The notes under the pieces were generated by a model, which was given only the letters and a program-made list of their open reading frames with translations, was not told where the DNA came from and did not search any database. The position numbers and the translations under genes are program-made. A DNA stretch of 64,000 nucleotides from Aurantiacibacter odishensis. Its GTDB lineage: Bacteria > Pseudomonadota > Alphaproteobacteria > Sphingomonadales > Sphingomonadaceae. The stretch lies in the NCBI RefSeq assembly GCF_003605195.1, contig NZ_QYOS01000022.1, forward strand, positions 186,001-250,000. Reading direction: 5' to 3'. Numbering within the stretch: position 1 is the first letter of the stretch; the number at the start of each line of letters is the position of its first letter. Shown here piece after piece: positions 193-15,666 of this stretch.

Positions 193-870
193 TCAGGGAC
201 CAAATAGTGCTTTGTCGAGCGAGGTGAGGAATTCCAGCCCGTTCTCGACGTGCTGTCGCATTGCCTTTTCCGCTCCCTCGGGATCGTCGTTCATGATCGC
301 ATCCAGGATCGCGCGGTGATCCTCGATAGCCTGCGTCATGCGGTTGCCGCGATAGAAGCTCTGGAACAGCAGGTGATGGACCGGCGTGTTCAGGCGCGAG
401 ACCAGTTCGGCGATCACGTGGTTTCTGGTGACGCGCATGATCATCGAATGCCAATCGGAATTGAGCTTGCCGAACTGTTCCGCCGAGCCTGCCTCAACGC
501 AGGTCTCCATCTTCTGGGCGATTTCGCGCAGTTGCTCCTTGTCCTCGTCCGTCGCAAGGCGAGTGAAATCGGCAGCGCAGATGCCTTCCAGTGCCGCGCG
601 AGCACGGTAAAGCTGGCTCACTTCCTCCAGCGAGGCTTCGCGCACCGAAGCGCCGCGAAATTCCTCGATCTCCAGCAAGCCCTCTGCAGCCAGCCGCTGA
701 AACGCCTCGCGCACCTTGGAGCGGCTTCCCCCGGTGCGCCGGATGATATCGACCTCCACCAGGCGCTGCCCCGGTACAAAGCGGCTGGCGCGGATCTGCG
801 AGCGGATCCAGTCGGCGATCTCGGGCGCGGGCGGGCCGCTTTTGGGCAGGGCCTTGGCTAGTTCGTCCAT
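193..870 (-). CDS. GntR-family regulator, FadR/FCD subfamily
   Basis: This is a 225-residue transcription factor. An N-terminal GntR winged helix (about residues 13-80, with the SKVREAFQRL recognition-helix region) is followed by an all-alpha FCD effector domain. In the FCD half the usual metal/ligand positions are visible as an Asp-Trp-His around residue 139, EDHRAIL and MRQHVENG. FCD-type GntR proteins usually repress nearby catabolic operons and respond to small organic acids. The gene is transcribed away from the TonB receptor that opens the catabolic cluster, with a short shared intergenic region containing an ATTGT-CA-ACAAT repeat. I infer that it controls that cluster and its own expression. 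The effector is not predictable. Confidence 0.9.
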   Translation of the reverse strand: MDELAKALPKSGPPAPEIADWIRSQIRASRFVPGQRLVEVDIIRRTGGSRSKVREAFQRLAAEGLLEIEEFRGASVREASLEEVSQLYRARAALEGICAADFTRLATDEDKEQLREIAQKMETCVEAGSAEQFGKLNSDWHSMIMRVTRNHVIAELVSRLNTPVHHLLFQSFYRGNRMTQAIEDHRAILDAIMNDDPEGAEKAMRQHVENGLEFLTSLDKALFGP

Positions 871-1036: not shown

Positions 1037-3721
1037 ATGACCAGGGGTAAGAAAAGTTTCGCGGCGTTCCGTAACGCGCTCTACTGCGGTGCCTCAGTGG
1101 CCGCAGCCTGCCTGGCAACCCCCGCGATGGGGCAGGAGCAGGACGACGAGATCGATGGCGAGGACGTCATCATCGTCACCGGCAGCCGCGTCAGCACCGG
1201 GGAAGCACCCGTCGGTGCCACCGCGACCGTGCTAGGCCGGGACGAGATCGAGAATTCCGGCGCCGTCACCATCGACCGCGTGATCCGCGAACTGCCGCAG
1301 GTGTTCGATCTCGGCGTTTCGGAGAACTCGCGCGGGCAGGCCGGCGGTTCGGGCAACATCACCTACGGCAACAGCGTGAACCTGCGCGGTATCGGCCCCT
1401 ACGCGACACTGGTGCTGATCGACGGCCACCGTGTGGTGAACAACAGTCGTTCGACCGACCCCTCGGTATTGCCGACGCTGGGCGTCGAGCGGATCGACGT
1501 CGTCGCCAACGGCGCTTCGGCCATCTACGGCTCCGATGCCGTGGCGGGCGTGGTGAACATCATTCCGCGCCGCTCGCTCGACGGGGTAGAGGCGTTCGGT
1601 CGCTATGGCACGTCGGAAGATGGCGCATTCGACGAATGGTCTGTCGGCGCGGCAGCAGGCTTCCGCTTCGATCGCGGACAGGTGATGTTCGCCTACGAGC
1701 ATGTCGAACGCTCGAACCTGAGCGGCGACGACCGGGATTTCTTCGTTTCCGACCAGACGCCGTTCGGCGGCAACGACTACCGCGTCACCCGCTGCGCGCC
1801 GGGCACGCTGATTGCCAACGGCACCACCTATGCCCTGCCCGACCAGTACACGCAGGCCAACGCCGGTTCCATCGTGGCGGGCACTGCCAACCTCTGCGAC
1901 GGCCTGATCGGGCAGGACCTGATCCCCGAGCAGAAATACGATTCGTTCAACTCGACCGGCACGTTCGAACTGACCGACTGGCTCGAGATCTTCTATGACG
2001 GGTTCTATTCCAAGCGCGAATTCACGCGCCTCAGTGCGCGGCCCTCCACCCGGCTGACCGTGCCCGAAACGAACGCGTTCTTCGTGCGCCCGCCGGGCTT
2101 TACCGGCACCAGCTACCAGATCGACTACAGCTTCGCTGACGATGTCGATCTCACCAAGTCGGAAGGCTCTGCCGAAAGCTGGCAGATCTCGCCCGGCCTT
2201 CGCGTCGAGCTGCCGTTCGACTGGACCATCGAGGCGCTGGTTGCCTACGGCGAAACGCGCGATTTCTCCGGCTCCTACGACGGCGTGAACAACGCCGCCC
2301 TCAACGCGGCTCTGGCCAGTTCCGACCCCAATGCCGCCTTCGATCCCTACGGCGGCGGGCGCACCAGCCAATCCGTGCTGGACAACATCTTCAACCAGAT
2401 CTTCCTCGCGCCCACCAACGGCCAGCTGACTTTCTACGAAGCCGGTGCCAGCGGGCCGCTGTTCGAACTGCCCGGCGGCGAGGTGCGCCTGGCCGTGGGT
2501 TACGAACGGCAGGAATTCTCGGTTGACCTGGGCGTTGCCCGCGGCGCGCCGACCAACCCGATCTCCTTCCGCACTTTCGACCGCAAGGTGGATTCGGTCT
2601 ATGCCGAAATGCTGCTTCCGCTGTTCGGCGGCGGCAACGCGCGGCCCGGTTTCGAGGAGCTGGAATTCGTCGCCGCCATCCGTCACGACAGCTACAGCGA
2701 TGCGGGCAACACCACGAACCCGCAGTTCGGCGTCAACTGGATGCCGACCGACCGCCTGACCCTGCGCGGCAGCTACGGCACGTCGTTCCGCGCGCCGACG
2801 ATCCCCGAGATCTACGGCAACAGCAACAACCTGTTCGTGCAGAATTACCAAAATCCGGCCGGCGGCGCGCCGATCGTGGGTGTGGCCCTCTCGGGCCCCA
2901 ACCTCGACCTCGGCCCCGAAACCGCCACCACCTGGTCGTTCGGTGCCGACTGGGAGCCGGTGGACCGCCTGCGCCTCTCGCTGACCTACTTCGATGTCGC
3001 CTACGACAACCAGGTGAGCGCGAACCTTTCGAACCTCGCCATCCTCGGCCAGGAAACGCAGTTCGCCGGAACGGGCGTCGTGCTGCGCGGCCAAGCGGCG
3101 CAGGACCAGATCCAGTCCCTGATCGACTCCGGCGTGAACGTCCTCGGGGCCTTCCCCGGCGGCAGCCTTTCCAACATCGACGTGTTCGTGGATGGCCGCT
3201 CGCGCAACCTGGGCAAGTCGATCACGCGGGGCATCGATTTCAGCGTGAACTATATGCTTGATCTCGGCGCCAACGACTTGCTGCGGCTGGGTGCGTCGGG
3301 CACCTACCTCACCGATTATGAGGTCGCCGTCGCGCCGCAGGCCAACCTGACGGACCAGCTCAACATCATCTTCCAGCCGCTGCGCTTCAAGGCCCGTGCC
3401 TTCGCCAACTGGGACCACGGCCCAATCTCCGCGCGCGTCATGGCGACCCATGTCGGGGGCTATACCAACAACCTCGTGACACCGTCGCAGGACGTGGATA
3501 GCTTCACGCCAGTGGACCTGACGCTGACCTGGCGCGTGGCAGACAGCTTCGCGATTCCGATGGCCGACCTTGAACTCGTTGCCGAGGTGCGCAACCTGTT
3601 CGATGCCGATCCGCCCTACGTCAACCTGGCGCCGAGCGGCAACGGCAGCGGCGGCTACGATGCGACGGCGGCCAACCCGATCGGACGGCAGTTTGCAATC
3701 GGGGCGCGTGTCCGCTTCTGA
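1037..3721 (+). CDS. TonB-dependent outer-membrane receptor (catabolic cluster)
   Basis: This 894-residue protein has an N-terminal signal peptide ending near residue 32 (ATPAMGQ), an acidic stretch, then a TonB-box-like IIVTGSR. A plug domain (about 55-175) contains LRGIGPYATLVLIDGHR and IYGSDAVAGVVNII, and a beta-barrel ends in the C-terminal aromatic ARVRF. The length is typical of sphingomonad receptors. A GGGAGAG ribosome-binding site sits six bases before the ATG. It is the first gene of the cluster and diverges from the GntR regulator. It probably imports the substrate, or a larger precursor of it, across the outer membrane. No siderophore-specific features are visible, so the ligand is unknown. 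Confidence 0.93.
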   Translation: MTRGKKSFAAFRNALYCGASVAAACLATPAMGQEQDDEIDGEDVIIVTGSRVSTGEAPVGATATVLGRDEIENSGAVTIDRVIRELPQVFDLGVSENSRGQAGGSGNITYGNSVNLRGIGPYATLVLIDGHRVVNNSRSTDPSVLPTLGVERIDVVANGASAIYGSDAVAGVVNIIPRRSLDGVEAFGRYGTSEDGAFDEWSVGAAAGFRFDRGQVMFAYEHVERSNLSGDDRDFFVSDQTPFGGNDYRVTRCAPGTLIANGTTYALPDQYTQANAGSIVAGTANLCDGLIGQDLIPEQKYDSFNSTGTFELTDWLEIFYDGFYSKREFTRLSARPSTRLTVPETNAFFVRPPGFTGTSYQIDYSFADDVDLTKSEGSAESWQISPGLRVELPFDWTIEALVAYGETRDFSGSYDGVNNAALNAALASSDPNAAFDPYGGGRTSQSVLDNIFNQIFLAPTNGQLTFYEAGASGPLFELPGGEVRLAVGYERQEFSVDLGVARGAPTNPISFRTFDRKVDSVYAEMLLPLFGGGNARPGFEELEFVAAIRHDSYSDAGNTTNPQFGVNWMPTDRLTLRGSYGTSFRAPTIPEIYGNSNNLFVQNYQNPAGGAPIVGVALSGPNLDLGPETATTWSFGADWEPVDRLRLSLTYFDVAYDNQVSANLSNLAILGQETQFAGTGVVLRGQAAQDQIQSLIDSGVNVLGAFPGGSLSNIDVFVDGRSRNLGKSITRGIDFSVNYMLDLGANDLLRLGASGTYLTDYEVAVAPQANLTDQLNIIFQPLRFKARAFANWDHGPISARVMATHVGGYTNNLVTPSQDVDSFTPVDLTLTWRVADSFAIPMADLELVAEVRNLFDADPPYVNLAPSGNGSGGYDATAANPIGRQFAIGARVRF

Positions 3722-3743
3722 TCGACGCAAACAGGGACGCAAA

Positions 3744-4856
3744 ATGCCAGAAGTGATATCCGTGGCCGTGACCGGCGACCTGGTTCTCGACGAGCCGAAC
3801 GCCGGGCACTGGCTCTCGGGTATCGCTTCTGCATTGCGCGGTGCCGATCTCGCCATCGGTCACCTCGAAGTCCCTCATACCGCAAGCACGGTGGAACTTG
3901 CAGGCGACGTGCCCGCGCCGGGCGCCCCCATCGAAAACCTGGAGGCCATTGCCGAGGCGGGCTTCGACATGCTCACGCTGGCCGGAAACCACATCGCCGA
4001 TTGCGGGGCGCAAGGCATTGCCGAGACTGTCGCCGAACTAGACAGGCTGGGCATCGCCTGCTGCGGCGCGGGGATGACTCTGGAAGATGCGCGCCGCCCC
4101 GCCTTCGCGGAAGCATGCGGACAGAAGATCGCGCTCCTCAGCTACAACTGCATCGGCCCGCAGGCGGCATGGGCCACGGCGGAGCGCGCAGGCTGTTCCT
4201 ATCTGCCTCTCACGACGCAGGACGGCACCGAGGTCACCCCGATGGCCCGCATCGAAGGAGTCTCGGCGGAGGCTTCCGACATCCTTGCCGCTGGCATCGC
4301 AGAGGCGCGAGGCCACGGTGCCGATCACGTCATCGTGGCGCTGCACAAGGGCGTCGTGCACACCCCCGCCCACATCGAACCCTACGAGCGCGATATTGGC
4401 AGAATGGCGATAGAGGCCGGCGCGGAAGCGGTGATCTCGCACCACGCGCACATCGTTCGTGGCGTAGAATTCCACCAGGGAAAGCCTATATTCCACGGCC
4501 TCGGCAACGGCTGCGTCGTCACCCGCGCGCTGTCGCCCGACCAGGATCATCCCGCGCGCAGCGAATGGGCCCGCAAGCGCAAGGAGCTATTCGGGTTCGA
4601 GCCCGACCCAGCCTACCACCTGGCGCCCTTCCATCCCGAGGCGGTGAACGCGTTCATTGGCACGCTGCGCTTCCAGCGTGGGAAGTCGCCCGAAGCTGCC
4701 ATCGTGCCCGTTCATGTCGAAGCGCCGGGTCGCCCCGTGCTGGCGCACGGCGACAGGGCCGAAGATATCCGGCGCTATGTAGAGGAGATCACCAGCCGCG
4801 CGGGGCTTCCCCCGATCCGCATTGCCGAAGATGGCAGGCTGGAGGCGGCACGATGA
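3744..4856 (+). CDS. CapA-type metallophosphoesterase-fold protein, cytosolic
   Basis: This 370-residue protein belongs to the CapA/PgsA family (calcineurin-like fold). The motifs are GDLVLDEP near residue 10, an AGNHIADCG segment around residue 80, and ISHHAHIVRGVE around residue 235. CapA members are named for poly-gamma-glutamate capsule synthesis, but many have other, unknown roles. There is no signal peptide or membrane segment here, and no capB/capC partner is nearby, so a capsule role is unlikely. The ATG at 3744 is preferred because it follows AGGGACGC and gives the conserved N-terminus; the frame continues upstream inside the receptor gene. The stop overlaps the start of the next gene (ATGA), tying it to the TRAP/CoA genes. 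A hydrolase step in the pathway is possible but unproven. Confidence 0.8.
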   Translation: MPEVISVAVTGDLVLDEPNAGHWLSGIASALRGADLAIGHLEVPHTASTVELAGDVPAPGAPIENLEAIAEAGFDMLTLAGNHIADCGAQGIAETVAELDRLGIACCGAGMTLEDARRPAFAEACGQKIALLSYNCIGPQAAWATAERAGCSYLPLTTQDGTEVTPMARIEGVSAEASDILAAGIAEARGHGADHVIVALHKGVVHTPAHIEPYERDIGRMAIEAGAEAVISHHAHIVRGVEFHQGKPIFHGLGNGCVVTRALSPDQDHPARSEWARKRKELFGFEPDPAYHLAPFHPEAVNAFIGTLRFQRGKSPEAAIVPVHVEAPGRPVLAHGDRAEDIRRYVEEITSRAGLPPIRIAEDGRLEAAR

Positions 4857-5305
4857 GCCGGCCCCTCAAGGCGGCCATCTGGCTCGGCGGCATTGCCTTG
4901 CTTGCGGCGACCGCGATCGACACGCTGGCCGTCATCGGTCGTCACCTCGGGATTCCCGTCACCGGCTCCATCGAACTGATGCAGGCCGCCGTGCTGGTAT
5001 CAGGCGCGCTGGGGCTGACGATTGCCACGATCGTGCAATCCCACGCGCGGGTGCGGCTTTTCGTCGACCGGCTCTCTCCTGCGGGGCAGGCCGTGGCGGA
5101 CAAGCTATCCGATGCCCTTTCGCTGATCTTTTTCCTCGCGCTGCTCATCGGGTCCGCATGCATTTCCATCGACCTGTGGGATGCGCACGAAAAGAGCGAA
5201 ATACTTGGCGTGCCGTGGCGGCTGCTGCGGCTGTTCGCCAATGCCTGCCTGATCATCGCTGCGGCCAGCCTGGCCGTGCGGATCGTCAGGAAGGTGCAGT
5301 CATGA
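4853..5305 (+). CDS. dctQ: TRAP transporter small permease subunit DctQ
   Basis: This 150-residue protein has four predicted membrane helices (about residues 8-27, 42-62, 87-107 and 124-145), the layout of the small DctQ subunit of tripartite ATP-independent periplasmic transporters. DctQ pairs with DctM to form the sodium-driven permease for organic acids. The start codon overlaps the upstream stop, and the stop overlaps the dctM start (ATGA both times), so expression is translationally coupled. The matching binding protein is four genes further on, at 10851, rather than adjacent. Confidence 0.87.
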   Translation: MSRPLKAAIWLGGIALLAATAIDTLAVIGRHLGIPVTGSIELMQAAVLVSGALGLTIATIVQSHARVRLFVDRLSPAGQAVADKLSDALSLIFFLALLIGSACISIDLWDAHEKSEILGVPWRLLRLFANACLIIAAASLAVRIVRKVQS

Positions 5306-6609
5306 TCGATACGGCAGGCACAGGACTTGTCGGCATCGTCGTGCTGTTTGCCCTGCTCCTTGCAGGGGCGCGGATCGGCACGGCGCTGGGCCTTGTCGGC
5401 CTTGGCGGGCTCGTCCTGATCCTCGGTCCGGAGGCTGCGCTGATCAAGGGCGGGGTCGTCGTGGTCGATACGCTGACGCGCTACGAACTTGGCACCCTGC
5501 CGCTGTTCCTGTTCATGGCGCATATCTTCTTCTCGGTGGATGCCAGCCGCGACCTTTTCGATGCTGCGGCCAAGCTTGTGGGGCACCGGCGCGGCGGCCT
5601 CGCCTATGCTTCCATCGCGGGCTGCGGCGGGTTCGGCGCGATCAACGGCTCCAGCCTCGCTACCACGGCCACCGTGGGCCTCGTTGCCTATCCGGAGATG
5701 AAGCGGCGCGGCTATGACGACAGGCTGTCGACCGCCACCATCGCCGCAGGCGGAACGCTGGGGCAGATGATCCCGCCGTCGGGCGCGCTGATCGTCTTCG
5801 GCATTATTGCCGAGCAGTCCATCGGGCGGCTGTTTACCGCCGCCATCATTCCGGGGATCACCCAGGCGCTGATCTATGCCGTGGTCGTCTTCGTCCTCGT
5901 CCGCCTCAGGCCGCAGCTAGCGCCGCCGGGCGAGCGGGCCGAGTGGAAGGATCGCTGGCGCGCTCTTGGCCGGATCTGGCAGATCGTGGCGCTGGTGTTG
6001 CTGGTGATCGGCGGCATTGCCTTGGGCTGGTTCAGCCCGCCCGAAGCCGCCGCCATCGGTGCCTCGGGCGCGCTGCTGATCGCTGCGCTGCGCCGCAAGC
6101 TGACCCGCGAGAACCTGTTCAACGCCTTCCACGAAACGCTGCGCACCACCGGTCTCATCTACCTCATCGTGATCGGCGCGCTGATCTTCTCCACCTTCGT
6201 CGGCGTCACCGGGCTGGCGGAAGCCGCCGGAATCCTCGTCGAGGGAATGGGCACAGGCACCTTCGTCACGCTGCTCATGGTGGCGCTGTTGCTGCTCATT
6301 CTGGGCACCGTTCTCGACGGGCTGGCCCTGATGCTGCTGATGACGCCGATCCTGCTGCCCATCGTGGAGGGCACCGGGATGACGGCGATCTGGTTCGGCA
6401 TCTTCCTGGTGCGCGCGATGGAAGTCGGCTTCCTCACGCCTCCCCTGGGTATCAACCTCTATGTCATGCAGGGCGTGGCCAAGGACATCTCGATCAGCAG
6501 CATCTTTCGCGGCGTGATGCCGTTCCTCGCGGGTGATTTCTTCCACCTGGTGCTGATCATCCTTTTCCCGGCCATGGTCCTGTGGCTGCCAGAAATGCTC
6601 GGAACCTGA
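5302..6609 (+). CDS. dctM: TRAP transporter large permease subunit DctM
   Basis: This 435-residue protein has about twelve hydrophobic segments. It shows DctM family hallmarks: GFGAINGSSLATTATVG near residue 113, AAGGTLGQMIPPSGALIVFG near residue 150, and LTPPLGINLYVMQG near the C-terminus. It is the transport subunit that moves the substrate delivered by DctP. It overlaps dctQ by four bases and is followed after two bases by the dehydratase-like gene. TRAP systems usually import carboxylates, which fits the downstream CoA-transferase genes. Confidence 0.93.
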   Translation: MIDTAGTGLVGIVVLFALLLAGARIGTALGLVGLGGLVLILGPEAALIKGGVVVVDTLTRYELGTLPLFLFMAHIFFSVDASRDLFDAAAKLVGHRRGGLAYASIAGCGGFGAINGSSLATTATVGLVAYPEMKRRGYDDRLSTATIAAGGTLGQMIPPSGALIVFGIIAEQSIGRLFTAAIIPGITQALIYAVVVFVLVRLRPQLAPPGERAEWKDRWRALGRIWQIVALVLLVIGGIALGWFSPPEAAAIGASGALLIAALRRKLTRENLFNAFHETLRTTGLIYLIVIGALIFSTFVGVTGLAEAAGILVEGMGTGTFVTLLMVALLLLILGTVLDGLALMLLMTPILLPIVEGTGMTAIWFGIFLVRAMEVGFLTPPLGINLYVMQGVAKDISISSIFRGVMPFLAGDFFHLVLIILFPAMVLWLPEMLGT

Positions 6610-6611
6610 AG

Positions 6612-7490
6612 ATGATTGCTATCGCCGGTCCCAACCTCCCGATTGACCTGCTGGCCGCCACCGGCCGGTTCGAGGGCGCGCTCGCCTTCGACCCGGACCG
6701 TGCGACGCCGCGTGCGAGCGGCTGGCTGGAAAGCAAGTTCGCGCCGTGGGCACGTCCGCTGCTCGAGAGCTGGGCGGAAGGCGCCTACGACGATCTGGAG
6801 CACGTCCTCTTCAGCCGCGCCGACGACACTTCGCAGCGCCTCTATTACTACATCTGCGAGCTTCAGCGGCGCGGACAGCTGGGCGGGCCGCAGCCGCTGA
6901 TCCTCGACGTGTGCAAGATACCCCGCGACACCAGCCGCAGGCGCACCGTGGCCAAGCTGCGCGAACTGGCGGACCAGCTTGGCGTCGGAGCCAGCGCACT
7001 CGGAGAAGCGATTGCGCGAACCAATGAGAACAGGCGCTCGTCCACCGACGGGAGAGACATTCCCGTATGTCTGCTGGCCGGGACGCCGCCGCCCGACCGG
7101 CGGCTCCACGCAGTGATCGAGGCAGCGGGTTTCGCGTCGGCCGGGTCCACGCTCACGCAGGAATGGCTCGATCCGGGGCCATCGGTCGATGGCGACAACG
7201 GCGACCCATTTGCCGCGCTGGGCGAACAGTTGCACGCCCGTCCGCGGGGTCCGCGAAGCTTTGCCGATGCGGAAAGCGTGCTGGCGAGGTCCCTCCAGAC
7301 GACGCAAGCCAGCGCCGCCATTCTCTGGCGGATCGAGGAGGACGAGGCGCAGTGCTGGCACCTCCCGGCAGAGCGGGAAGCGCTCGAAGCGACAGGCATT
7401 CCCGCGCTCGTGATGACGCGGCGCGACTGGCTGGCGAACGACGGCGCGCGCGAGGAAATTGCCGCGTTCCTGGAAGGGGTGACACGATGA
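6612..7490 (+). CDS. Short 2-hydroxyacyl-CoA dehydratase-like subunit
   Basis: This 292-residue protein resembles the 2-hydroxyacyl-CoA dehydratase / benzoyl-CoA reductase BcrB-BcrC/HgdA-HgdB family, most clearly over residues 1-140 (IDLLAATGRFEGALA at the N-terminus, then SRADDTSQRLYYYICELQRRG). The usual length is 370-430 residues, so this copy is short. Only four cysteines are present (82, 101, 153, 248), fewer than expected for a cluster-binding subunit, so it may be structural or use another cluster geometry. It is coupled to the tandem CoA-transferase (ATGA) and separated by that gene from its presumed partner at 9568. The ATG at 6612 is chosen because it lies two bases after the dctM stop. 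The family call is by pattern recognition; the substrate is unknown. Confidence 0.65.
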   Translation: MIAIAGPNLPIDLLAATGRFEGALAFDPDRATPRASGWLESKFAPWARPLLESWAEGAYDDLEHVLFSRADDTSQRLYYYICELQRRGQLGGPQPLILDVCKIPRDTSRRRTVAKLRELADQLGVGASALGEAIARTNENRRSSTDGRDIPVCLLAGTPPPDRRLHAVIEAAGFASAGSTLTQEWLDPGPSVDGDNGDPFAALGEQLHARPRGPRSFADAESVLARSLQTTQASAAILWRIEEDEAQCWHLPAEREALEATGIPALVMTRRDWLANDGAREEIAAFLEGVTR

Positions 7491-9571
7491 GCTTCCTCGA
7501 AGGCCACAGGGTTGCCGTGATCGGCGACATGCAGGAACGCCCGCTGGCGCGATACCTGGCATCGCTCGGCGCCGAAATCGGCGGGCCGGTGGAGGGCGCA
7601 AGTTTCGTGATCGACGACGTTGGGCTGGAAGGCACCGCCGACTTGGCCATTCCCGATACGGCGATCCACGTCTCCGTCACTCCGTTCGGGTCGGGCGGCC
7701 CGCGTTCGCACTGGCGCGGGGGAGAGCTGGTATCCTCGGCCATGGGCGGCGCGCTGCGGCTGACAGGCGTTCCGGGCGAAAAGCCGGTGAAGGAAGCGGG
7801 CGATGCCTGCACCTTCCACGCCGACATGGTCGCTGCCGCTGGCGCGATGGCCGCGCATTTCGCGCGCGGCACGCACGGCATGGGGCAGCACGTCGACGTC
7901 TCGATCCAGCAGGTCGCCATGAGCCGCAACGTGAACGGCGTGCTCGTCTGGCAGTTCGACCGGCGCAAGCTGGATCGGGCGGGCGGCTGCATCGCCTATG
8001 GCCGGGCCAAGGTGCAGGTAATCTGGAAACTGGCCGACGGATACTGCTTCCACGCGTTGATGACGGGCCGCCTCGGCGCGCCTGCGAACAAGGCGCTGTC
8101 GGACTGGATGGACGAGACCGGGGTCGAGAACCCGATGCGCGATGTCGACTGGCTCGCCTACAACCGCTCCACCCTGCCCGAGGAAACCCGCGACCGCTGG
8201 CAGGCCGCCATGGCGCGGTTCTTCGCGCAGCGCACCAAGCACGACATCGCCACCGAAGGAAGGCGGCGCGGCATCAACGCCTGCGTCGTGAACGAACCCG
8301 CGGATGTGCTGCAGAACGAGCACCTGAAGGCGCGGCACTTCTTCGATACCCCGGATGGTTTGCCAGAGCGGTTCGCTGCGGTTCGCGATGGGGCGGCCAA
8401 GGGCGCTCCAGCCGTTCACCAGGGCAAACGGTCCGGCCCGCTGTCCGGCGTTAGAGTGCTGGATTTCGCCTGGGCGCTGGTCGGCTCGATCACCACCAAG
8501 ACGCTGGGCGACCTCGGCGCAGAAGTGGTGAAGATCGAGAGCCGCAGCCGCCCCGACCTCGCCCGCCTCGATGTTCAGGTTTCGGCCTCCAGCGCCGACA
8601 GCCTCGACGACAAGCCGTGGTTCGCCAATCTCAACACCTCGAAACGCAGCCTGACGCTCGACCTGAAGAAGCCCGCCTCGCGCGAGGTGCTGGACCCGCT
8701 GATCGACTGGGCAGACGTGGTGGTGGAGAATTTTTCGCCCGGCACGATGGCCAAGCTCGGCCTCGATTACGATAGCCTGGTAAAGCGCAATCCGGGGCTG
8801 GTGATGGTGTCAGGCAGCGTATTCGGGCAGACCGGCCCGCTGGCGAACGAATGGGGCGTCGACGGCACCGGCGGCGCACTGTCTGGCCGCACCTACCTGA
8901 CGGGCTACCCGGACGGCGAGCCGGTGATCCCCGGCGCGGTGCCCTACGGCGACGTGATCGTGCCCTTCGTCATGGCGGGCCATGTCGCTGCCGCCTTGCA
9001 GCGCCGCCGCGAAACCGGCGCGGGGTGCCACATCGATGCCTCGATGTACGAGATCTGTGTGCAGCAGATGCGCGAATTCCTGAAAGCGGCCAAGGCCGGG
9101 GAGCGGCCCCGTCGCCTCGGCAATGCGGACCCTGCAGTGTACTTCCAGGACGTGTTCCCCGCTGCGGGCGAAGACAGGTGGGTGGCGATCAGTTGCTTCA
9201 GCGAAGCCGAGCACCAGCGCCTGCTATCCATCACCGGGCCGGACATTGCCACGTGGACTTCTGCGCGCGATGACCACGCCATCGCCGAGGAACTGCAGGC
9301 CGCCGGAATTGCCGCCGGTGCCTTGCAGGACTGTGAGGACCTGCTCGATCACGACCCCCAGATCGCAGGCCGCGCCGCCATGTGGGACCTCGAGCACGCG
9401 GTGCTCGGCACCTTCGGCCATATTGCTACGCCGATGGCTTTCTCGCGAGACACGTTGGCCCCTTTCCGCGCGCCCTCGATCGGGGAACACGCGCACGAGG
9501 TGGCCCGCGAGATCGCGCGCCTTTCGCCAGCCGACATCGCGCGGCTGGAAAGCGATGGAGTTTTCAAATGA
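7487..9571 (+). CDS. Tandem two-domain CaiB/BaiF (family III) CoA-transferase-like protein
   Basis: This 694-residue protein contains two family III CoA-transferase units. Domain 1 (about 1-310) lacks much of the usual N-terminal Rossmann half and has GQHVDVSIQQ, with Gln142 where family members carry the catalytic Asp. Domain 2 (about 318-694) is complete, starting GVRVLDFAWALVG, but has IDASMYE with Glu522 at that position. DddD is a known two-domain CaiB protein that retains a catalytic Asp in one half; here neither half has it. It might act as a CoA-transferase using Glu522, or as an acyl-CoA-binding partner. Both neighbours are dehydratase-like genes, overlapping by four bases. In anaerobic Fld/Had systems a family III CoA-transferase activates the 2-hydroxyacid for the dehydratase. 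Confidence 0.85.
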   Translation: MSFLEGHRVAVIGDMQERPLARYLASLGAEIGGPVEGASFVIDDVGLEGTADLAIPDTAIHVSVTPFGSGGPRSHWRGGELVSSAMGGALRLTGVPGEKPVKEAGDACTFHADMVAAAGAMAAHFARGTHGMGQHVDVSIQQVAMSRNVNGVLVWQFDRRKLDRAGGCIAYGRAKVQVIWKLADGYCFHALMTGRLGAPANKALSDWMDETGVENPMRDVDWLAYNRSTLPEETRDRWQAAMARFFAQRTKHDIATEGRRRGINACVVNEPADVLQNEHLKARHFFDTPDGLPERFAAVRDGAAKGAPAVHQGKRSGPLSGVRVLDFAWALVGSITTKTLGDLGAEVVKIESRSRPDLARLDVQVSASSADSLDDKPWFANLNTSKRSLTLDLKKPASREVLDPLIDWADVVVENFSPGTMAKLGLDYDSLVKRNPGLVMVSGSVFGQTGPLANEWGVDGTGGALSGRTYLTGYPDGEPVIPGAVPYGDVIVPFVMAGHVAAALQRRRETGAGCHIDASMYEICVQQMREFLKAAKAGERPRRLGNADPAVYFQDVFPAAGEDRWVAISCFSEAEHQRLLSITGPDIATWTSARDDHAIAEELQAAGIAAGALQDCEDLLDHDPQIAGRAAMWDLEHAVLGTFGHIATPMAFSRDTLAPFRAPSIGEHAHEVAREIARLSPADIARLESDGVFK

Positions 9572-10854
9572 GCCAGTCCGTCAACCAGCGCAGCCGCAAG
9601 ACACTGGCCTGCACGTCCGAAGCGACGGCCTTCCAGAAGGCGTTCGGCAAGGAACTGAAACGCCGCGTCGTGGACGAGGCCGAGCCCTATGCCATCGTGC
9701 AGGCCGATACCCCGCACGAGCTGTTCCACGCGATGGACATCCCCATCATCACCAACCAGTGGTGGTCCGCCTACATCTCCGCAAAGCAGCTTTCGGGGCG
9801 CTATTTCGATGCGATGGTGAAGAAGGGCTTCCCCGCGAACAGTTGCAAGTACTGCTCGCTTGGCCTCGCCTGCACGCTGGCAGACGAGCCGGAAACGGCG
9901 CCGTGGGGCGGATTGCCCACGCCCACCGTGCTGGTGGCGCGGCTCACCTGCGATTGCATCCAGCACGTCTTCGGCCTGTGGGCGAAGGAACTGGGCAGTG
10001 AGTTCTACCCGATGGAAGCGCCCGCCTGGGAGCACAAGGAAGTGGACTGGTTCGCCCACTCGAAAGACGCGTGGGACCGGGTCTACCAGCCCGACCGTAT
10101 CGAGCAGATGGTGTCCGAGATGGAGGACCTGATCGCCCTCCTGGAAGAGCGGACCGGGCGAAAGTTCGATCCCGCGCGACTGGAACGGCTGATGGAGCGG
10201 ATCAACGAACAGGAAGGCTACATCTGGGAAGCCGCTCGCGCCATCGGCGAAGCGCGCCCCTGCCCCGTCTCCATCGCCGAACAGATGCCCAACACCATGA
10301 TTCCGCAGTGGCACCGCGGATCGGACTGGGCGGTCGCCCATGCGAAGAAGTTTCGCGACGAGGTGTTCGAGCGGATCGAGAAGGGGCTGGGAGCGTCCAG
10401 AAACGAGCGGCTGCGGCTGATGTGGATCGGTGCCGGGGTCTGGCACGATCCGGGCTTCTACCAGGCGCTGGAGGAAAAGCTGGGCGCGGTCTTCGTGTGG
10501 TCGATGTACATGCCCTTTGCCGGGCCGGCCTATATCCGCGACCTGAAGGGCGAGCCGATGGAAGCGCTGGCCAGCCGCGTCGCCTCGATGAACGAGGTGC
10601 TGCACCTGCCGCCGTGGATGAACGGCTGGATGACCTCAGAGGCGGAGCGTTGCGGCATCGATGCCGCCGTGATCCTGCTCCCGCCGGACAACCGCCTCTC
10701 GCAGTCGGGCACTAATCTCACGGCGCTGTCGCTGGAAGAGGCGGGCGTGCCGGTGCTGCGCATCGATGCCGACATGGTCGATGCCGACAACTGGGACCAC
10801 AACCGGATGGTCGGCATGGTCGATAGCTTCCTACACGAGAAAGGGCTGGCATGA
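9568..10854 (+). CDS. 2-hydroxyacyl-CoA dehydratase / benzoyl-CoA reductase family protein
   Basis: This 428-residue protein is full length for the BcrB-BcrC/HgdA-HgdB family. The conserved early region reads HELFHAMDIPIITNQWW (residues 50-66), as in HgdB/FldC-type subunits. Cysteines at 93, 96, 102, 128 and 130 (SCKYC, LAC, TCDC) and at 362 are candidate iron-sulphur ligands. Characterised members remove water from 2-hydroxyacyl-CoA, or reduce aromatic acyl-CoA, through a radical started by a separate ATP-driven activator. No activator is encoded in this window. The gene overlaps both neighbours by ATGA. With the 6612 product it probably forms a two-subunit enzyme; dehydratase versus reductase cannot be decided from sequence alone. 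Confidence 0.82.
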   Translation: MSQSVNQRSRKTLACTSEATAFQKAFGKELKRRVVDEAEPYAIVQADTPHELFHAMDIPIITNQWWSAYISAKQLSGRYFDAMVKKGFPANSCKYCSLGLACTLADEPETAPWGGLPTPTVLVARLTCDCIQHVFGLWAKELGSEFYPMEAPAWEHKEVDWFAHSKDAWDRVYQPDRIEQMVSEMEDLIALLEERTGRKFDPARLERLMERINEQEGYIWEAARAIGEARPCPVSIAEQMPNTMIPQWHRGSDWAVAHAKKFRDEVFERIEKGLGASRNERLRLMWIGAGVWHDPGFYQALEEKLGAVFVWSMYMPFAGPAYIRDLKGEPMEALASRVASMNEVLHLPPWMNGWMTSEAERCGIDAAVILLPPDNRLSQSGTNLTALSLEEAGVPVLRIDADMVDADNWDHNRMVGMVDSFLHEKGLA

Positions 10855-11879
10855 GGCTTCTCGCCCTTCTCGCCCTGCTGGTATTGGCGGCGTGCAGCCG
10901 ACCGGTACCCGAAGGCGTGACCGAGCTGACTTACGCTTCGCCCTATCCGCCCAGCCACCCGTTCAGCCGAGCCGACCAGACCTGGATCGACTTCGTCCAC
11001 GAACGCTCCGGCGGACGTATCAAGATCAAGCCGATCTGGTCCGGCGCGCTGCTTTCGGCTGACATGTCGATGACGGAGATCCGCCACGGCGTGGCCGACA
11101 TCGGCCTCATCACCCCGATCTATACGCGCGGCGGCACCCACCTGCTGCGCACCCAGACAGGCTTTTACAGCGGGGCCGATTCCATCGAATCGCAACTGGC
11201 GCTCTATCGCTGCATGGCGAAGGTAGAGCCGCAGTTCGACAAGGAGCTGGAAGGACTGAAGCTGCTCGCCCTGCAAGGCGGCGTGCTGCCCGGCATCCTG
11301 ACGAGCACCGCGAGGGTGGAAAGCCTCGCCGACCTGCAGGGCCTCAGGATCAGAGCGCCTACCGAGCTGCTGCCGGTGCTGCGCAATCTGGGGGCGGACC
11401 CGGTCGACCTGCCGATGGGCGAGGTTTACAGCGCGCTCGCAAAAGGGGTGATCGACGGCGTCGTGGCTCCGCCCGAAACGCTGCAATCGCTGCATTTCGG
11501 CGAAGTTACCGACTACTTCTACGACATTCGCATACCGCGCGGCGCCTACCCCTCCCGGGCGATGGACATGGAAGCCTGGCAATCGCTGAGCGATGCCGAG
11601 CGGGCTATCCTCGAAGAAGGCATCGGCGTGTGGGAAGCCGCCCTTGCCGAAGAAAACCGCGCCGCCGCGGCCGCGGGCGAAAAGATCGCCGCCAGCACCA
11701 TCACAATCCTGCCTGCCAGCACGCAGGACCAGCAGCAGTTCGACGACCTCTATCTGCGCGAAGGCCAGGCCAACGCGCGGGCGCTTTTCCGCGTGGGGAT
11801 AGACGGAATGACAGCCTATCGCGCCGCTCGCCAGAGCCTGGTGGAGCGCGACACAGTTCAATGCGGAGATACGAAGTGA
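10851..11879 (+). CDS. dctP: TRAP transporter substrate-binding protein DctP, predicted lipoprotein
   Basis: This 342-residue DctP-family binding protein starts with a short hydrophobic signal and an LAAC lipobox, with Cys15 as the predicted lipidated residue. The body has ELTYASPYPPSHPFSRADQTW, a 'LQGLRIR' segment and DLPMGEVYSALAKGVIDGV, all typical of DctP. It should capture a small carboxylate and pass it to DctQM (4853-6609). Its separation from dctQM by three enzyme genes is unusual, as is a lipid anchor on a Gram-negative TRAP binding protein. The Arg that commonly binds a substrate carboxylate is probably in LRIRAPTE. It overlaps the upstream gene (ATGA) and the next gene (GTGA). Confidence 0.88.
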   Translation: MRLLALLALLVLAACSRPVPEGVTELTYASPYPPSHPFSRADQTWIDFVHERSGGRIKIKPIWSGALLSADMSMTEIRHGVADIGLITPIYTRGGTHLLRTQTGFYSGADSIESQLALYRCMAKVEPQFDKELEGLKLLALQGGVLPGILTSTARVESLADLQGLRIRAPTELLPVLRNLGADPVDLPMGEVYSALAKGVIDGVVAPPETLQSLHFGEVTDYFYDIRIPRGAYPSRAMDMEAWQSLSDAERAILEEGIGVWEAALAEENRAAAAAGEKIAASTITILPASTQDQQQFDDLYLREGQANARALFRVGIDGMTAYRAARQSLVERDTVQCGDTK

Positions 11880-13036
11880 CGCACCAGCCCCTCGCAGGAG
11901 TAACCGTCGCGGATTTCAGCCACGTGATGGCCGGCCCCTTCGCCAGCCACATCCTGCGGCTGATGGGAGCCAAGGTCATCAAGATCGAATCCCCGCGCGG
12001 AGACCAGTTCCGCAATTACGGCTCGAACCGCGATTTCGACGGGATGAGCCCGGCTTTCATCGCGGCCAATGTCGGCAAGAAGAGCATCGCGCTGGACCTG
12101 AAGGACGAGAAGGACCACGAAACCGCGCGCCGCATCGTCGCTAAAAGCGACGTGTTGCTGGAGAACTTCCGCCCCGGCGTGATCGCCCGGCTGGGCCTTG
12201 GCTACGATGCCGTTCGCCAGCTGCGCGAGGACATCGTGTTCTGCTCCGTCTCCGGTTACGGGCAGGACAGCCCGCAGCGCGACTGGCCCGCGATCGACAA
12301 TATCGTGCAGGCCACCAGCGGCATGATGATGCTGAGCGGCGCGGAAGGCGACCCGCCCGTGCGCATCGGCTTCCCCATCGTCGACACGTTGACGGGGCAG
12401 ACCGCCGCCGTGGCAATCCTTGGCGCACTGTTCCAGCGGCAGCAAACCGGGAAAGGGGCCTACATCGACGTCTCGATGATCGATGCCAGCCTGTCCTTCA
12501 TGACCTCCGCGCTGACGCCCTACCTCGTCACCGGATCGCCGCTGCGCCGCCTCGGCAACACAGGTTACAGCGAGCTTCCCACCGCCGCCCTGTTCAAGAC
12601 GAAGGACGACAGGCACGTGTCGCTGGGCGTGGTGCAGGACAACCAGTTCGCCGCACTGGCGCGCAAGCTGAGGCGCGAGGACTGGCTGGCCGACGAACGC
12701 TACTCGACCGCCGACGCGCGCCGCGCCAATTTCGATGCGATGCACGCGGAGCTGGAGCAGATCTTCCTCACCCGCGCGGCAGACGAGTGGGAGCGCGAGC
12801 TGAGCGGCGAGGGCATTCCCTGTGGCAAGGTTCGCGGCGTGCACGAGGCAGCGGACCTGGGTTCGGCGGATTCGCTGCTAGACCTCGACACCGACGCATT
12901 GCCCAAGGGCTGCACGGCAACGGTGCCGAACGCCGGCTTCCGCATGGAGCCGGGCCAGCCCGGAACGCACGAGGCACCGCCGCGACTGGATGCTGACAGA
13001 GAGGAAATCCTGGCATGGCTGGACGGGAACGACTGA
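11876..13036 (+). CDS. CaiB/BaiF family III CoA-transferase
   Basis: This 386-residue protein is a complete family III CoA-transferase. It starts with LAGVTVADFSHVMAGPFASH, has the usual ALDLKDEKDHETARRIVAKSD and LLENFRPG segments, and carries GAYIDVSMID with Asp203 at the catalytic position. These enzymes move CoA between acids through a glutamyl/aspartyl anhydride mechanism. The GTG at 11876 is preferred over an in-frame ATG at 11861: it overlaps the dctP stop as GTGA and follows a GGAGA six bases upstream. As the only CoA-transferase in the cluster with an intact active site, it is the best candidate to activate the imported acid. Family sequence alone does not reveal the substrate. Confidence 0.9.
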   Translation: MTHQPLAGVTVADFSHVMAGPFASHILRLMGAKVIKIESPRGDQFRNYGSNRDFDGMSPAFIAANVGKKSIALDLKDEKDHETARRIVAKSDVLLENFRPGVIARLGLGYDAVRQLREDIVFCSVSGYGQDSPQRDWPAIDNIVQATSGMMMLSGAEGDPPVRIGFPIVDTLTGQTAAVAILGALFQRQQTGKGAYIDVSMIDASLSFMTSALTPYLVTGSPLRRLGNTGYSELPTAALFKTKDDRHVSLGVVQDNQFAALARKLRREDWLADERYSTADARRANFDAMHAELEQIFLTRAADEWERELSGEGIPCGKVRGVHEAADLGSADSLLDLDTDALPKGCTATVPNAGFRMEPGQPGTHEAPPRLDADREEILAWLDGND

Positions 13037-13038
13037 CG

Positions 13039-15666
13039 ATGGCCACACCCCTTCCCTCGCCCGCCCGGCTGGTGGCGGTCTTCGCGCTCCTGCTGGCATC
13101 GCTGGCCGCGACCTCCGCATCGGCGCAGCCCTATCCGGAATACGAACGCGAATCGCTTTACGTGCCCGTGCGCGACGGGACCCGCCTCGCGCTCAACATC
13201 TATCGCCCCGCGACCGCGGACGGCGTGGTGGACGAGCCACTGCCGGTCATCTTCGCCTTCACGCCCTACCGAGCGCGCTATTACGACGAAGACGGCGAGA
13301 TCGTGGAGCTGGCGCTGAGCGACCGGCTCGCGATGCGATCGCTAATCCGTGCTGGTTACGTGGTGGCCACTGCCGACGTACGCGGCAAGGGCGCCTCCTT
13401 CGGGGCGCGGCGCGGCTTTCTCGATCAGACCGAGGCGCAGGACGGCGCGGACCTGCTGAACTGGCTGGCGGCGCAGCCCTACACGACGGACAAGGCAGGG
13501 ATGATCGGCTGCTCCTACCTCGGCGGCTCGACAACACTGGTGGCGGGCGCAGCGCCTGAATCGCTGAAAGCCGTCTTCATCGGCGCGACCGACTGGGACA
13601 AGTACGATTTCGTGCGCCGAGGCGGCCTTACCGCGCAGTTCAACACCCGCCCGGACGAACCGCTTTCGGTCGATCTCGCCAGCGTCCCTATGGATGCAGA
13701 TCGCGACGGCGCGCTGCTGCGCGAGGCCGTGGCGCAGCACGCGGACAATACGCCGATGGCGGGGCTGTGGGCGGAAATGCCGTTCCGCGACAGCGTGTCC
13801 TCCTACACAGGCAATGCCTTCTGGGACGAAGTCGCCGTGTGGCAATATGCCGACAGGATCCGCGAGGCAGGCATTGCCACCTACTACTGGAGCAACTGGG
13901 AAGACGAGCCGACCAGCCAGGTGCTGATTGCGGCGCGCAACATGGACAGCCGCCTCCTGGTCGGCCCCGGCAGTCACTGCGTGCCCCCGCCCGGCTTCGA
14001 TTTCGTCGGCGAGATAGCGCGCTATTTCGATTACCACCTGAAGGGGATCGACGACGGATTCTCTGCCGAGCCGCCCGTCACCTACTGGGCCGATCGCGGC
14101 ACCGACCAAGGCGAATACGTGCGCGGCGTGACCATTCCCGGCACCAGCTCCACCACGCAGGCCTGGTATCTCAACGGACCTGCCGCAGATGGCGCCCTTG
14201 GTCTCTCGCCCAGCCCGCTCGATAATGGCAGTGACCGGCTGGTGGTCGACTATGACGTCGCCAACGACGACTATTTCTCCTTCTGGCCCGAAAGCCTAGC
14301 CGAGCATGGCCTTGCCTACACAAGCGAGCCATTCGACCGCGCAGCGGACCTCCTCGGCTACCCTGTCGCCCACGTGGAGCTTTCCGCCGACCGGGAGGAT
14401 GCCGACGTCTTCGTCTATCTCGAGGAACTGTCGCCGGGGGGCGAGGCCGAAGTCCTCTCGTTCGGGCGGCTGAAAATCTCACACCGTGCAACCAAACCTG
14501 CACCGTGGGACAACCTCGGACTGCCCTGGCACAGCGGGTACGAGGCCGACGTCGCCCCCCTTCCTGCCGGGGAAACGGCGCGCCTGCCGATTGCCATGAT
14601 GCCGCTGTCACATCGCGTGCAGCCGGGTTACCGGCTGCGGTTCGTGATCACTGGCGCCGATCCGCGCCAGCGCAACCTCGAAGAGGTGAAGCAGGACCCG
14701 CCGCCCGTGCTGGACATTCAGCGTGGCTGGCAATCGGGATCGCGCGTTGACCTGCCACTGCACGATGTCGAAGCGGACGCCGCGATTGAAGGGCAGATCG
14801 GTGATGCAGGCGGCAGCGGCCCCCACCCTGCAATCGCGCAGGCGCGGGAAGACGCGCCCGGATATACTATCTATCGCCCCGCTACCCTGCCGGACGAGCC
14901 CATGCCGGTCGTGCTGTGGGGCAACGGCGGATGCCGCGACAATGGCCTCAGTGCCAGCCATGCCCTGCGCGATTTCGCCAGCCACGGCTTTCTTGTGATC
15001 GCCAACGGAACGCCTCGGCGTGAACTGGACATCCTTTCCGAAGTGCCCGTCATGCCCGCAGCAGCGGGCGGACCGCGCACGCTGCCGCCCCCGTCGCAGC
15101 GCCAGCCGGACGAAACCTCCACCGCGCAGATGCTGGCGGCCCTCGACTGGGCCGCGCGCGCGAACGCCGACCCGGCCGACCCACTATACGGCAGGATCGA
15201 CACCGGGCGCGTCGCCGCCACCGGGCACAGCTGCGGTGGCCTGCAGGCGCTGTTGGCAGGCACCGATCCCCGCATCGACACCGTGATCGCCTTCGGCAGC
15301 GGGGTTTACAATCGTGGCGGCCCGGGCCTCAGCGGCGTGCAGATCGACAAGGATGCCTTGCGTAACCTGCACACGCCCGTCGCCTATATCCTTGGCGGCC
15401 CCACCGACATCGCCTTTCCCAACGGCAGCGACGATTTCGCCCGCATCGACCACGTGCCGGTGATGTTTGCCAACCTCCCTGTGGGGCACGGCGGAACGCT
15501 GATGCTGGAAGACGGGGGCGAGTGGGCACGCGCAGGTTCGGCCTGGCTCAAGTGGCAATTGCGCGGCGACCAGGAGGCCGCTGAGTTCTTCATCGGCGAG
15601 GGCTGCGTTCTCTGCAGCGCAAAGGATTGGACAGTGGAGCGAAAGCAATTTGCCTCCGAGCCTTAG
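13039..15666 (+). CDS. Exported CocE/NonD-type hydrolase fused to a second alpha/beta-hydrolase
   Basis: This 875-residue protein has a signal peptide cleaved near ASA-QP (residue 29). An X-Pro dipeptidyl-peptidase/CocE hydrolase domain contains the nucleophile GCSYLGG (Ser159), followed by a CocE C-terminal beta-sandwich (about 330-590). A second alpha/beta-hydrolase domain (about 610-860) has GHSCGG (Ser731). CocE/NonD enzymes cleave esters or acyl-amides. Typical members are 550-650 residues, so the extra C-terminal hydrolase is unusual. The gene starts two bases after the CoA-transferase stop and ends the cluster; its stop overlaps an integrase remnant on the other strand. It probably releases the transported acid from an ester or amide in the periplasm. 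I chose the ATG at 13039 because it gives a clean signal peptide. Confidence 0.85.
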   Translation: MATPLPSPARLVAVFALLLASLAATSASAQPYPEYERESLYVPVRDGTRLALNIYRPATADGVVDEPLPVIFAFTPYRARYYDEDGEIVELALSDRLAMRSLIRAGYVVATADVRGKGASFGARRGFLDQTEAQDGADLLNWLAAQPYTTDKAGMIGCSYLGGSTTLVAGAAPESLKAVFIGATDWDKYDFVRRGGLTAQFNTRPDEPLSVDLASVPMDADRDGALLREAVAQHADNTPMAGLWAEMPFRDSVSSYTGNAFWDEVAVWQYADRIREAGIATYYWSNWEDEPTSQVLIAARNMDSRLLVGPGSHCVPPPGFDFVGEIARYFDYHLKGIDDGFSAEPPVTYWADRGTDQGEYVRGVTIPGTSSTTQAWYLNGPAADGALGLSPSPLDNGSDRLVVDYDVANDDYFSFWPESLAEHGLAYTSEPFDRAADLLGYPVAHVELSADREDADVFVYLEELSPGGEAEVLSFGRLKISHRATKPAPWDNLGLPWHSGYEADVAPLPAGETARLPIAMMPLSHRVQPGYRLRFVITGADPRQRNLEEVKQDPPPVLDIQRGWQSGSRVDLPLHDVEADAAIEGQIGDAGGSGPHPAIAQAREDAPGYTIYRPATLPDEPMPVVLWGNGGCRDNGLSASHALRDFASHGFLVIANGTPRRELDILSEVPVMPAAAGGPRTLPPPSQRQPDETSTAQMLAALDWAARANADPADPLYGRIDTGRVAATGHSCGGLQALLAGTDPRIDTVIAFGSGVYNRGGPGLSGVQIDKDALRNLHTPVAYILGGPTDIAFPNGSDDFARIDHVPVMFANLPVGHGGTLMLEDGGEWARAGSAWLKWQLRGDQEAAEFFIGEGCVLCSAKDWTVERKQFASEP

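Follow-up and report, generated by a model that had tools for sequence, protein, structure and literature searches.

A conserved uptake and CoA-transfer cluster of Aurantiacibacter odishensis encodes a candidate activator-independent branch of the HGD-D superfamily

The window analyzed here is a stretch of 64,000 nucleotides from Aurantiacibacter odishensis (GCF_003605195.1, contig NZ_QYOS01000022.1, positions 186,001 to 250,000). Ten ORFs are present between positions 1037 and 15666, in the order and at the coordinates given by a preliminary description. Its account of ten genes joined by ATGA overlaps or short spacers agrees with the gene calls, Pfam matches, and junctions; a divergent regulator gene precedes them:

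193..870, minus strand: GntR/FCD regulator, divergent (Pfam FCD 3.5e-30, GntR 4e-11)
1037..3721, plus strand: TonB-dependent outer-membrane receptor (PF00593 7.5e-35, PF07715 6.3e-16)
3744..4856, plus strand: CapA-type metallophosphoesterase-fold protein, PGA_cap/CapA (PF09587 6.5e-49)
4853..5305, plus strand: DctQ, TRAP small permease (PF04290 5.7e-13)
5302..6609, plus strand: DctM, TRAP large permease (PF06808 1.2e-94)
6612..7490, plus strand: HgdS, small HGD-D-like subunit, predicted partner type (PF06050 19.6 bits, under the 28.4 cut-off)
7487..9571, plus strand: CaiB2, tandem class III CoA-transferase (PF02515 7.5e-107)
9568..10854, plus strand: HgdL, large HGD-D subunit, predicted catalytic type (PF06050 171 bits)
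10851..11879, plus strand: DctP, TRAP solute-binding protein (PF03480 1.3e-29)
11861..13036, plus strand: CaiB1, class III CoA-transferase (PF02515 5e-107)
13039..15666, plus strand: hydrolase fusion, cocaine-esterase/S15 (S15/PepX_C) plus PETase-like (PF02129 3.5e-44, PF08530 2.3e-28; PETase-like end PF12740 2.7e-06, at 27.4 bits slightly below the cut-off of 28)

ATGA overlaps join five pairs (CapA/DctQ, DctQ/DctM, HgdS/CaiB2, CaiB2/HgdL, and HgdL/DctP), and the spacers measure 2 nt at DctM/HgdS, 2 nt at CaiB1/hydrolase, and 22 nt at TonB/CapA. The divergent GntR/FCD regulator probably belongs with the cluster and controls it; a homologue lies close to the cluster start in part of 80 named loci and in 5 of 14 further order-level loci. 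On the 3′ side (window positions 15663–64000; Pfam scan to about 22000) are seryl-tRNA synthetase, SurE, and a TrkA-N/ion-channel protein. Two COX1-family oxidase genes in the host genome (3.19 Mb, 100% complete) support the earlier guess of an aerobic host; the genome has one PF06050 match at E ≤ 0.001, HgdS being too weak for that search.

Across an order-level sample of 396 genomes, HgdL matched 20 at E ≤ 1e-10: 15 genomes at 75–100% identity, the host included, four with only 34–40% relatives, and one with a canonical-type homologue at 22%. The nine genes from the TonB receptor to CaiB1 are kept in all 14 other close loci, together with pieces of the hydrolase. Neighbor conservation in other genomes had been proposed as a check on the cluster, and in a scan of named contigs, from which the best 80 of 386 relatives were kept, the exact eight-gene order CapA-DctQ-DctM-HgdS-CaiB2-HgdL-DctP-CaiB1 recurred in 43 of the 58 loci with enough flank; the cluster is therefore not a chance assembly. 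Given enough flank, HgdS lies upstream of HgdL in 68/72 and CaiB2 in 66/73 loci among the same best 80. Most of the kept loci are labeled Sphingomonadales; further labels are Asticcacaulis, Phenylobacterium, and Steroidobacter, besides metagenome-assembled genomes labeled Gammaproteobacteria, Lysobacteraceae, Myxococcales, and Bacteroidota. Sphingomonadales, Asticcacaulis, and Steroidobacter keep the gene order; deviations occur in Phenylobacterium and in the most distant loci.

Some of the recurring or nearby flanking ORFs were also scanned, and none was constant among those scanned; consequently no substrate can be inferred from the neighbors. Their matches—Rieske, FAD monooxygenase, RPE65-type oxygenase, P450, PaaX, MarR, TetR, and transport genes—come from lists made by a simple ORF caller with some wrong-strand picks and so serve as leads only. 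For several recurring flanking ORFs, one of them in 20 loci, Pfam gave no match; these are perhaps shadow ORFs on the reverse strand.

The products of the genes at 6612 and 9568 had been described as a dehydratase pair, with a profile search as the proposed check. That search places both in the HGD-D superfamily, HgdL at 171 bits against PF06050 and HgdS through a 42-sequence profile. The 54-row HgdL profile matched MbdO (2.5e-40), HadB (3.6e-38), and BzdO (2e-30), and the HgdS profile matched HadC (1.3e-16) and BzdN (3.4e-14). AF2 models reached pLDDT 90.7 for HgdL, with 8s02_C as top Foldseek match (7.2e-17), and 94.7 for HgdS, which matched 3o3n_B (7.5e-12); at E ≤ 0.001, all 20 matches per model fall within the superfamily. 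As profile matches and predicted folds agree, we assign HgdL as the predicted catalytic-type and HgdS as the predicted partner-type subunit, two distinct subunit types of the HGD-D fold. The predicted heterodimer fold is shared with HadBC ((R)-2-hydroxyisocaproyl-CoA dehydratase, PDB 3o3m), and the class I benzoyl-CoA reductases BzdNO/MbdON (PDB 8s02, 9g87) supply the best structural and profile matches of HgdL. The double-cubane cluster protein DCCP (PDB 6eno) shares the superfamily fold with both subunits; that match is weaker, and no activating ATPase was found here. A role in a defense system was rejected, neither subunit having a PADLOC match.

Within this shared fold, the catalytic residues differ. 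An excerpt of PMC11971306 gives C95, C128, and C380 plus water/hydroxide as ligands of the BzdO [4Fe-4S] cluster, and E65 and H131 as acid/base groups; these five residues align with HgdL C93, C128, N375, Q64, and I131. Two of the three Cys positions are therefore kept, and the third Cys appears in only 1 of 78 rows (position 375: Asn in 68 rows, Ser in 7, and His, Cys, and Thr in one each). In the alignment with HadB, NRSCK lies opposite PDNRL. The active-site Glu (HadB E55, BzdO E65) is absent from HgdL, with Gln64 in 78/78 rows; its active-site role is stated for BzdO E65 in the PMC11971306 excerpt and carried to HadB by alignment. The motif NQWW at positions 63–66 is invariant in the 78 close rows. 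HgdL also has an invariant CX2C (93, 96) plus CXC (128, 130) set: C93, C96, and C128 in 79/79 rows and C130 in 78/79 (80 loci, two dropped for coverage under 0.9). A HgdL relative from Rhodospirillales TMPK1 (L121:10001-11257) has this set and also keeps the third canonical Cys (KSCH); its genome has no TIGR00241 match, and the protein is possibly an evolutionary intermediate.

Relatives at 34–40% identity to HgdL have no Cys at the CX2C/CXC positions. In three of five such sister loci (L041–L043 of L040–L044), both subunits form one ORF of 763–780 aa with TRAP and CaiB genes adjoining; L044 has CaiB1 and no TRAP match in its stretch, and L040 has neither. NQWW is found in most sister rows, L020 and L025 being exceptions. 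In the tree, HgdL-type and sister proteins form one clade with support 100/100 and a long stem, and canonical catalytic-type subunits fall outside it; within the clade the branching order is uncertain, as is the position of long branches. Separately, the sister-type HgdS-HgdL-CaiB set of L044 (741-13105) has as neighbors genes for an RPE65-type oxygenase, a PaaX regulator, and a TonB receptor, together with a PETase-like hydrolase match.

The four HgdL cysteines might nonetheless bind a [4Fe-4S] cluster in which one iron is open. Aconitase-like, redox-neutral Lewis-acid chemistry works without an activator, and an HgdL acting in this way would be a (de)hydratase on acyl-CoA. Invariance of the four Cys in 78–79 of 79 rows, with two at canonical ligand positions, fits such an enzyme. 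We nevertheless consider it unlikely, given the Cys-free sisters in TRAP/CaiB clusters (L041–L043): the wider clade needs no cluster, unless the sisters perform another reaction.

Cluster Cys are lost in HgdS as well. At the five canonical partner-cluster columns—Cys in 3/3 canonical partner-type rows as we labeled them, HadC being outside that alignment—none of 22 HgdS rows (22 of 69) has a Cys; all 22 rows have a gap at one of these columns and Asp or Glu at the last. Class I benzoyl-CoA reductases carry double-cubane Cys in their N-type subunit and depend on activating ATPases; HgdS lacks the former, and no such ATPase was found in the host genome.

The distribution of the ATP-driven activator was also examined. 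In the host genome, neither PF01869 nor TIGR00241 has a match above its cut-off, and none of the 19 order-level genomes has a TIGR00241 match; 15 of these carry HgdL at 75–100%, the host included, and four have only 34–40% relatives. By contrast, G078, the 83% complete genome with the canonical homologue, has a TIGR00241 gene directly downstream of that homologue. The broader family PF01869 exceeds cut-off in 4 of 20 order genomes (G078, G214, G213, and G179), the hits in the last three not being matched by TIGR00241. A phylum sample gave PF06050 in 8 of 398 genomes, four canonical by their three Cys and four new-type, with G025 assigned to the new clade by 80% identity; an activator adjoins the canonical gene in 4/4 and is found in 0/4 new-type genomes. 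Over all samples, the activator lies beside the gene in 5/5 canonical genomes. Seven activator queries against 101 stretches, the window included, matched a single locus, the canonical control L045. Among 25 named genomes from the best 80 loci, whose completeness is not given, 22 have no activator over cut-off; the other three (G773, G775, and G791) have hits that, except for one in G775, lie within 2 kb of other PF06050 genes. HgdSL hosts might have an activator of another, unrecognized family.

The preliminary description had held that the logic of the cluster matches Fld/Had, which would make the HgdS-HgdL heterodimer (HgdSL) a true ATP-activated radical 2-hydroxyacyl-CoA dehydratase. Fold, subunit types, and class III CoA-transferase neighbors fit that idea; HgdL keeps two of the three cluster Cys, the TMPK1 relative all three, and activators do occur in three of the 25 named genomes with the gene, albeit mostly beside other PF06050 genes. 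Cluster ligands, active-site Glu, and activator were each tested, however, and on these three grounds we reject canonical Had/Fld function. HgdSL differs from HadBC and BzdNO/MbdON alike in the missing third Cys, active-site Glu, and partner Cys and in the absence of a recognized activator; the host, with its two oxidases, is aerobic in character; and the sister proteins are Cys-free, three of them in TRAP/CaiB clusters. A radical dehydratase of the Fld/Had kind is accordingly very improbable here, and the step is unlikely to proceed by the known activator-driven mechanism. Because the three-Cys site, the Glu, the partner ligands, and the activator are all lost, HgdSL must work without the activator's electron.

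In class III CoA-transferases, the Asp/Glu position is the catalytic nucleophile. Both transferases of the cluster combine the CaiB fold with a carboxylate at this position: CaiB1 has Asp208 (Asp in 59/62 rows, Glu in 3/62), and the second domain of CaiB2 has Glu522 (67/67 rows), the first domain having Gln in 38 and Glu in 29 of 67. The best PDB match of CaiB2, in its second domain, is 10uh (1.9e-41), followed by benzylsuccinate CoA-transferase 9fn0_B over the second half and 9fn0_A over the first. Since its halves match both subunits of 9fn0, CaiB2 may be a fused two-subunit enzyme, similar to 10uh and 9fn0 in domain matches and different from them in joining the two domains in one chain. 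CaiB2 could in principle do the chemistry itself, with HgdSL as a non-catalytic acyl-CoA-binding partner: its gene lies between both subunit genes, and its two domains have Glu and Gln/Glu instead of the usual Asp. Yet Glu occupies the same position in the solved chains 10uh and 9fn0_B by alignment, HgdS and HgdL remain adjacent without a detected tandem CaiB in L056, L081, and L103, and HgdL is better conserved than CaiB2. We regard a purely binding role as quite unlikely and infer that HgdSL is catalytic.

The hydrolase matches lipase 2fx5 (1.4e-23), PETase 9w68 (2.7e-17), and cocaine esterase 3i2i (3.8e-12), and its signal-peptide-like start, seen by eye, indicates that the fusion is probably exported; its two parts are separate in several Novosphingobium loci. 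DctP has PDB relatives 4n6d, 4nap, and 4pgn and, by eye, a lipobox-like N-terminus. The CapA-type protein, with PDB relatives 8gq9, 8gqb, and 8ith and no signal peptide by eye, scores 77 bits against the NCBIfam MslH epimerase model, whose cut-off is 700.

Judged by its gene families, the cluster would take up and hydrolyze a compound and activate the organic acid as a CoA ester, in an order of steps that we infer as follows. The TonB receptor would bring a larger compound, an ester or amide of the organic acid, into the periplasm; the double hydrolase would free the acid; the TRAP transporter would import it; and CaiB1 and the fused, two-subunit-like CaiB2 would make the CoA thioester, on which the HgdS-HgdL heterodimer would act. 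HgdSL would then be oxygen-tolerant and activator-independent, with protein side chains doing the chemistry and the four-Cys set of HgdL holding a structural or redox-neutral metal. We favor, with moderate confidence, this account of a catabolic operon for an organic acid with HgdSL as a redox-independent, activator-free CoA-thioester enzyme. Uptake and CoA transfer stand from the earlier claim of a complete uptake-to-CoA cluster; "complete" is too strong, as the only recognizable step past the CoA ester is the dehydratase-like pair.

We found no description of such a cluster in the open-licence papers searched. The earlier reading holds for the combination of uptake, CoA transfer, and an HGD-D heterodimer in an aerobe, undescribed in the literature searched, and is not supported for its Fld/Had mode of working. 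HgdSL is apparently an undescribed, activator-independent branch with non-canonical chemistry on a CoA thioester, and to call HgdS and HgdL "dehydratase" solely because of their family would probably mislead. The 2-hydroxyacyl-CoA dehydratases and the class I benzoyl-CoA reductases are known for reactions that depend on an activator, on ATP, and on anoxic conditions (see also PMC11971306). A branch without these three in a catabolic cluster of aerobes is a natural experiment on the fold minus its cofactor, and HgdSL may offer an air-stable enzyme for reactions so far confined to anaerobes. A wider proposal, which we advance tentatively and hold to be doubtful, is that this branch of the superfamily escaped oxygen-sensitive radical chemistry, giving up the open-iron site and the activator and becoming, in four-Cys and Cys-less forms, an oxygen-tolerant and ATP-independent enzyme of aerobes that would still carry out difficult C-O (or C-C) reactions on acyl-CoA esters.

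Several of the kept loci show local variants of the cluster. In Novosphingobium sp. ERN07 (L115:7227-12230), CaiB2 is in three pieces and HgdS, DctP, and CaiB1 are partial, reflecting either decay or an assembly error. A cluster without a CapA match occurs in a metagenome-assembled genome labeled Klebsiella pneumoniae (L085), a label that is probably wrong. In other Novosphingobium loci (L065:15713-19000, L070, L071, and L073), a second CapA (33–34%), a TonB receptor (38–40%), and a PETase-like hydrolase match lie directly downstream and constitute a paralogous module.
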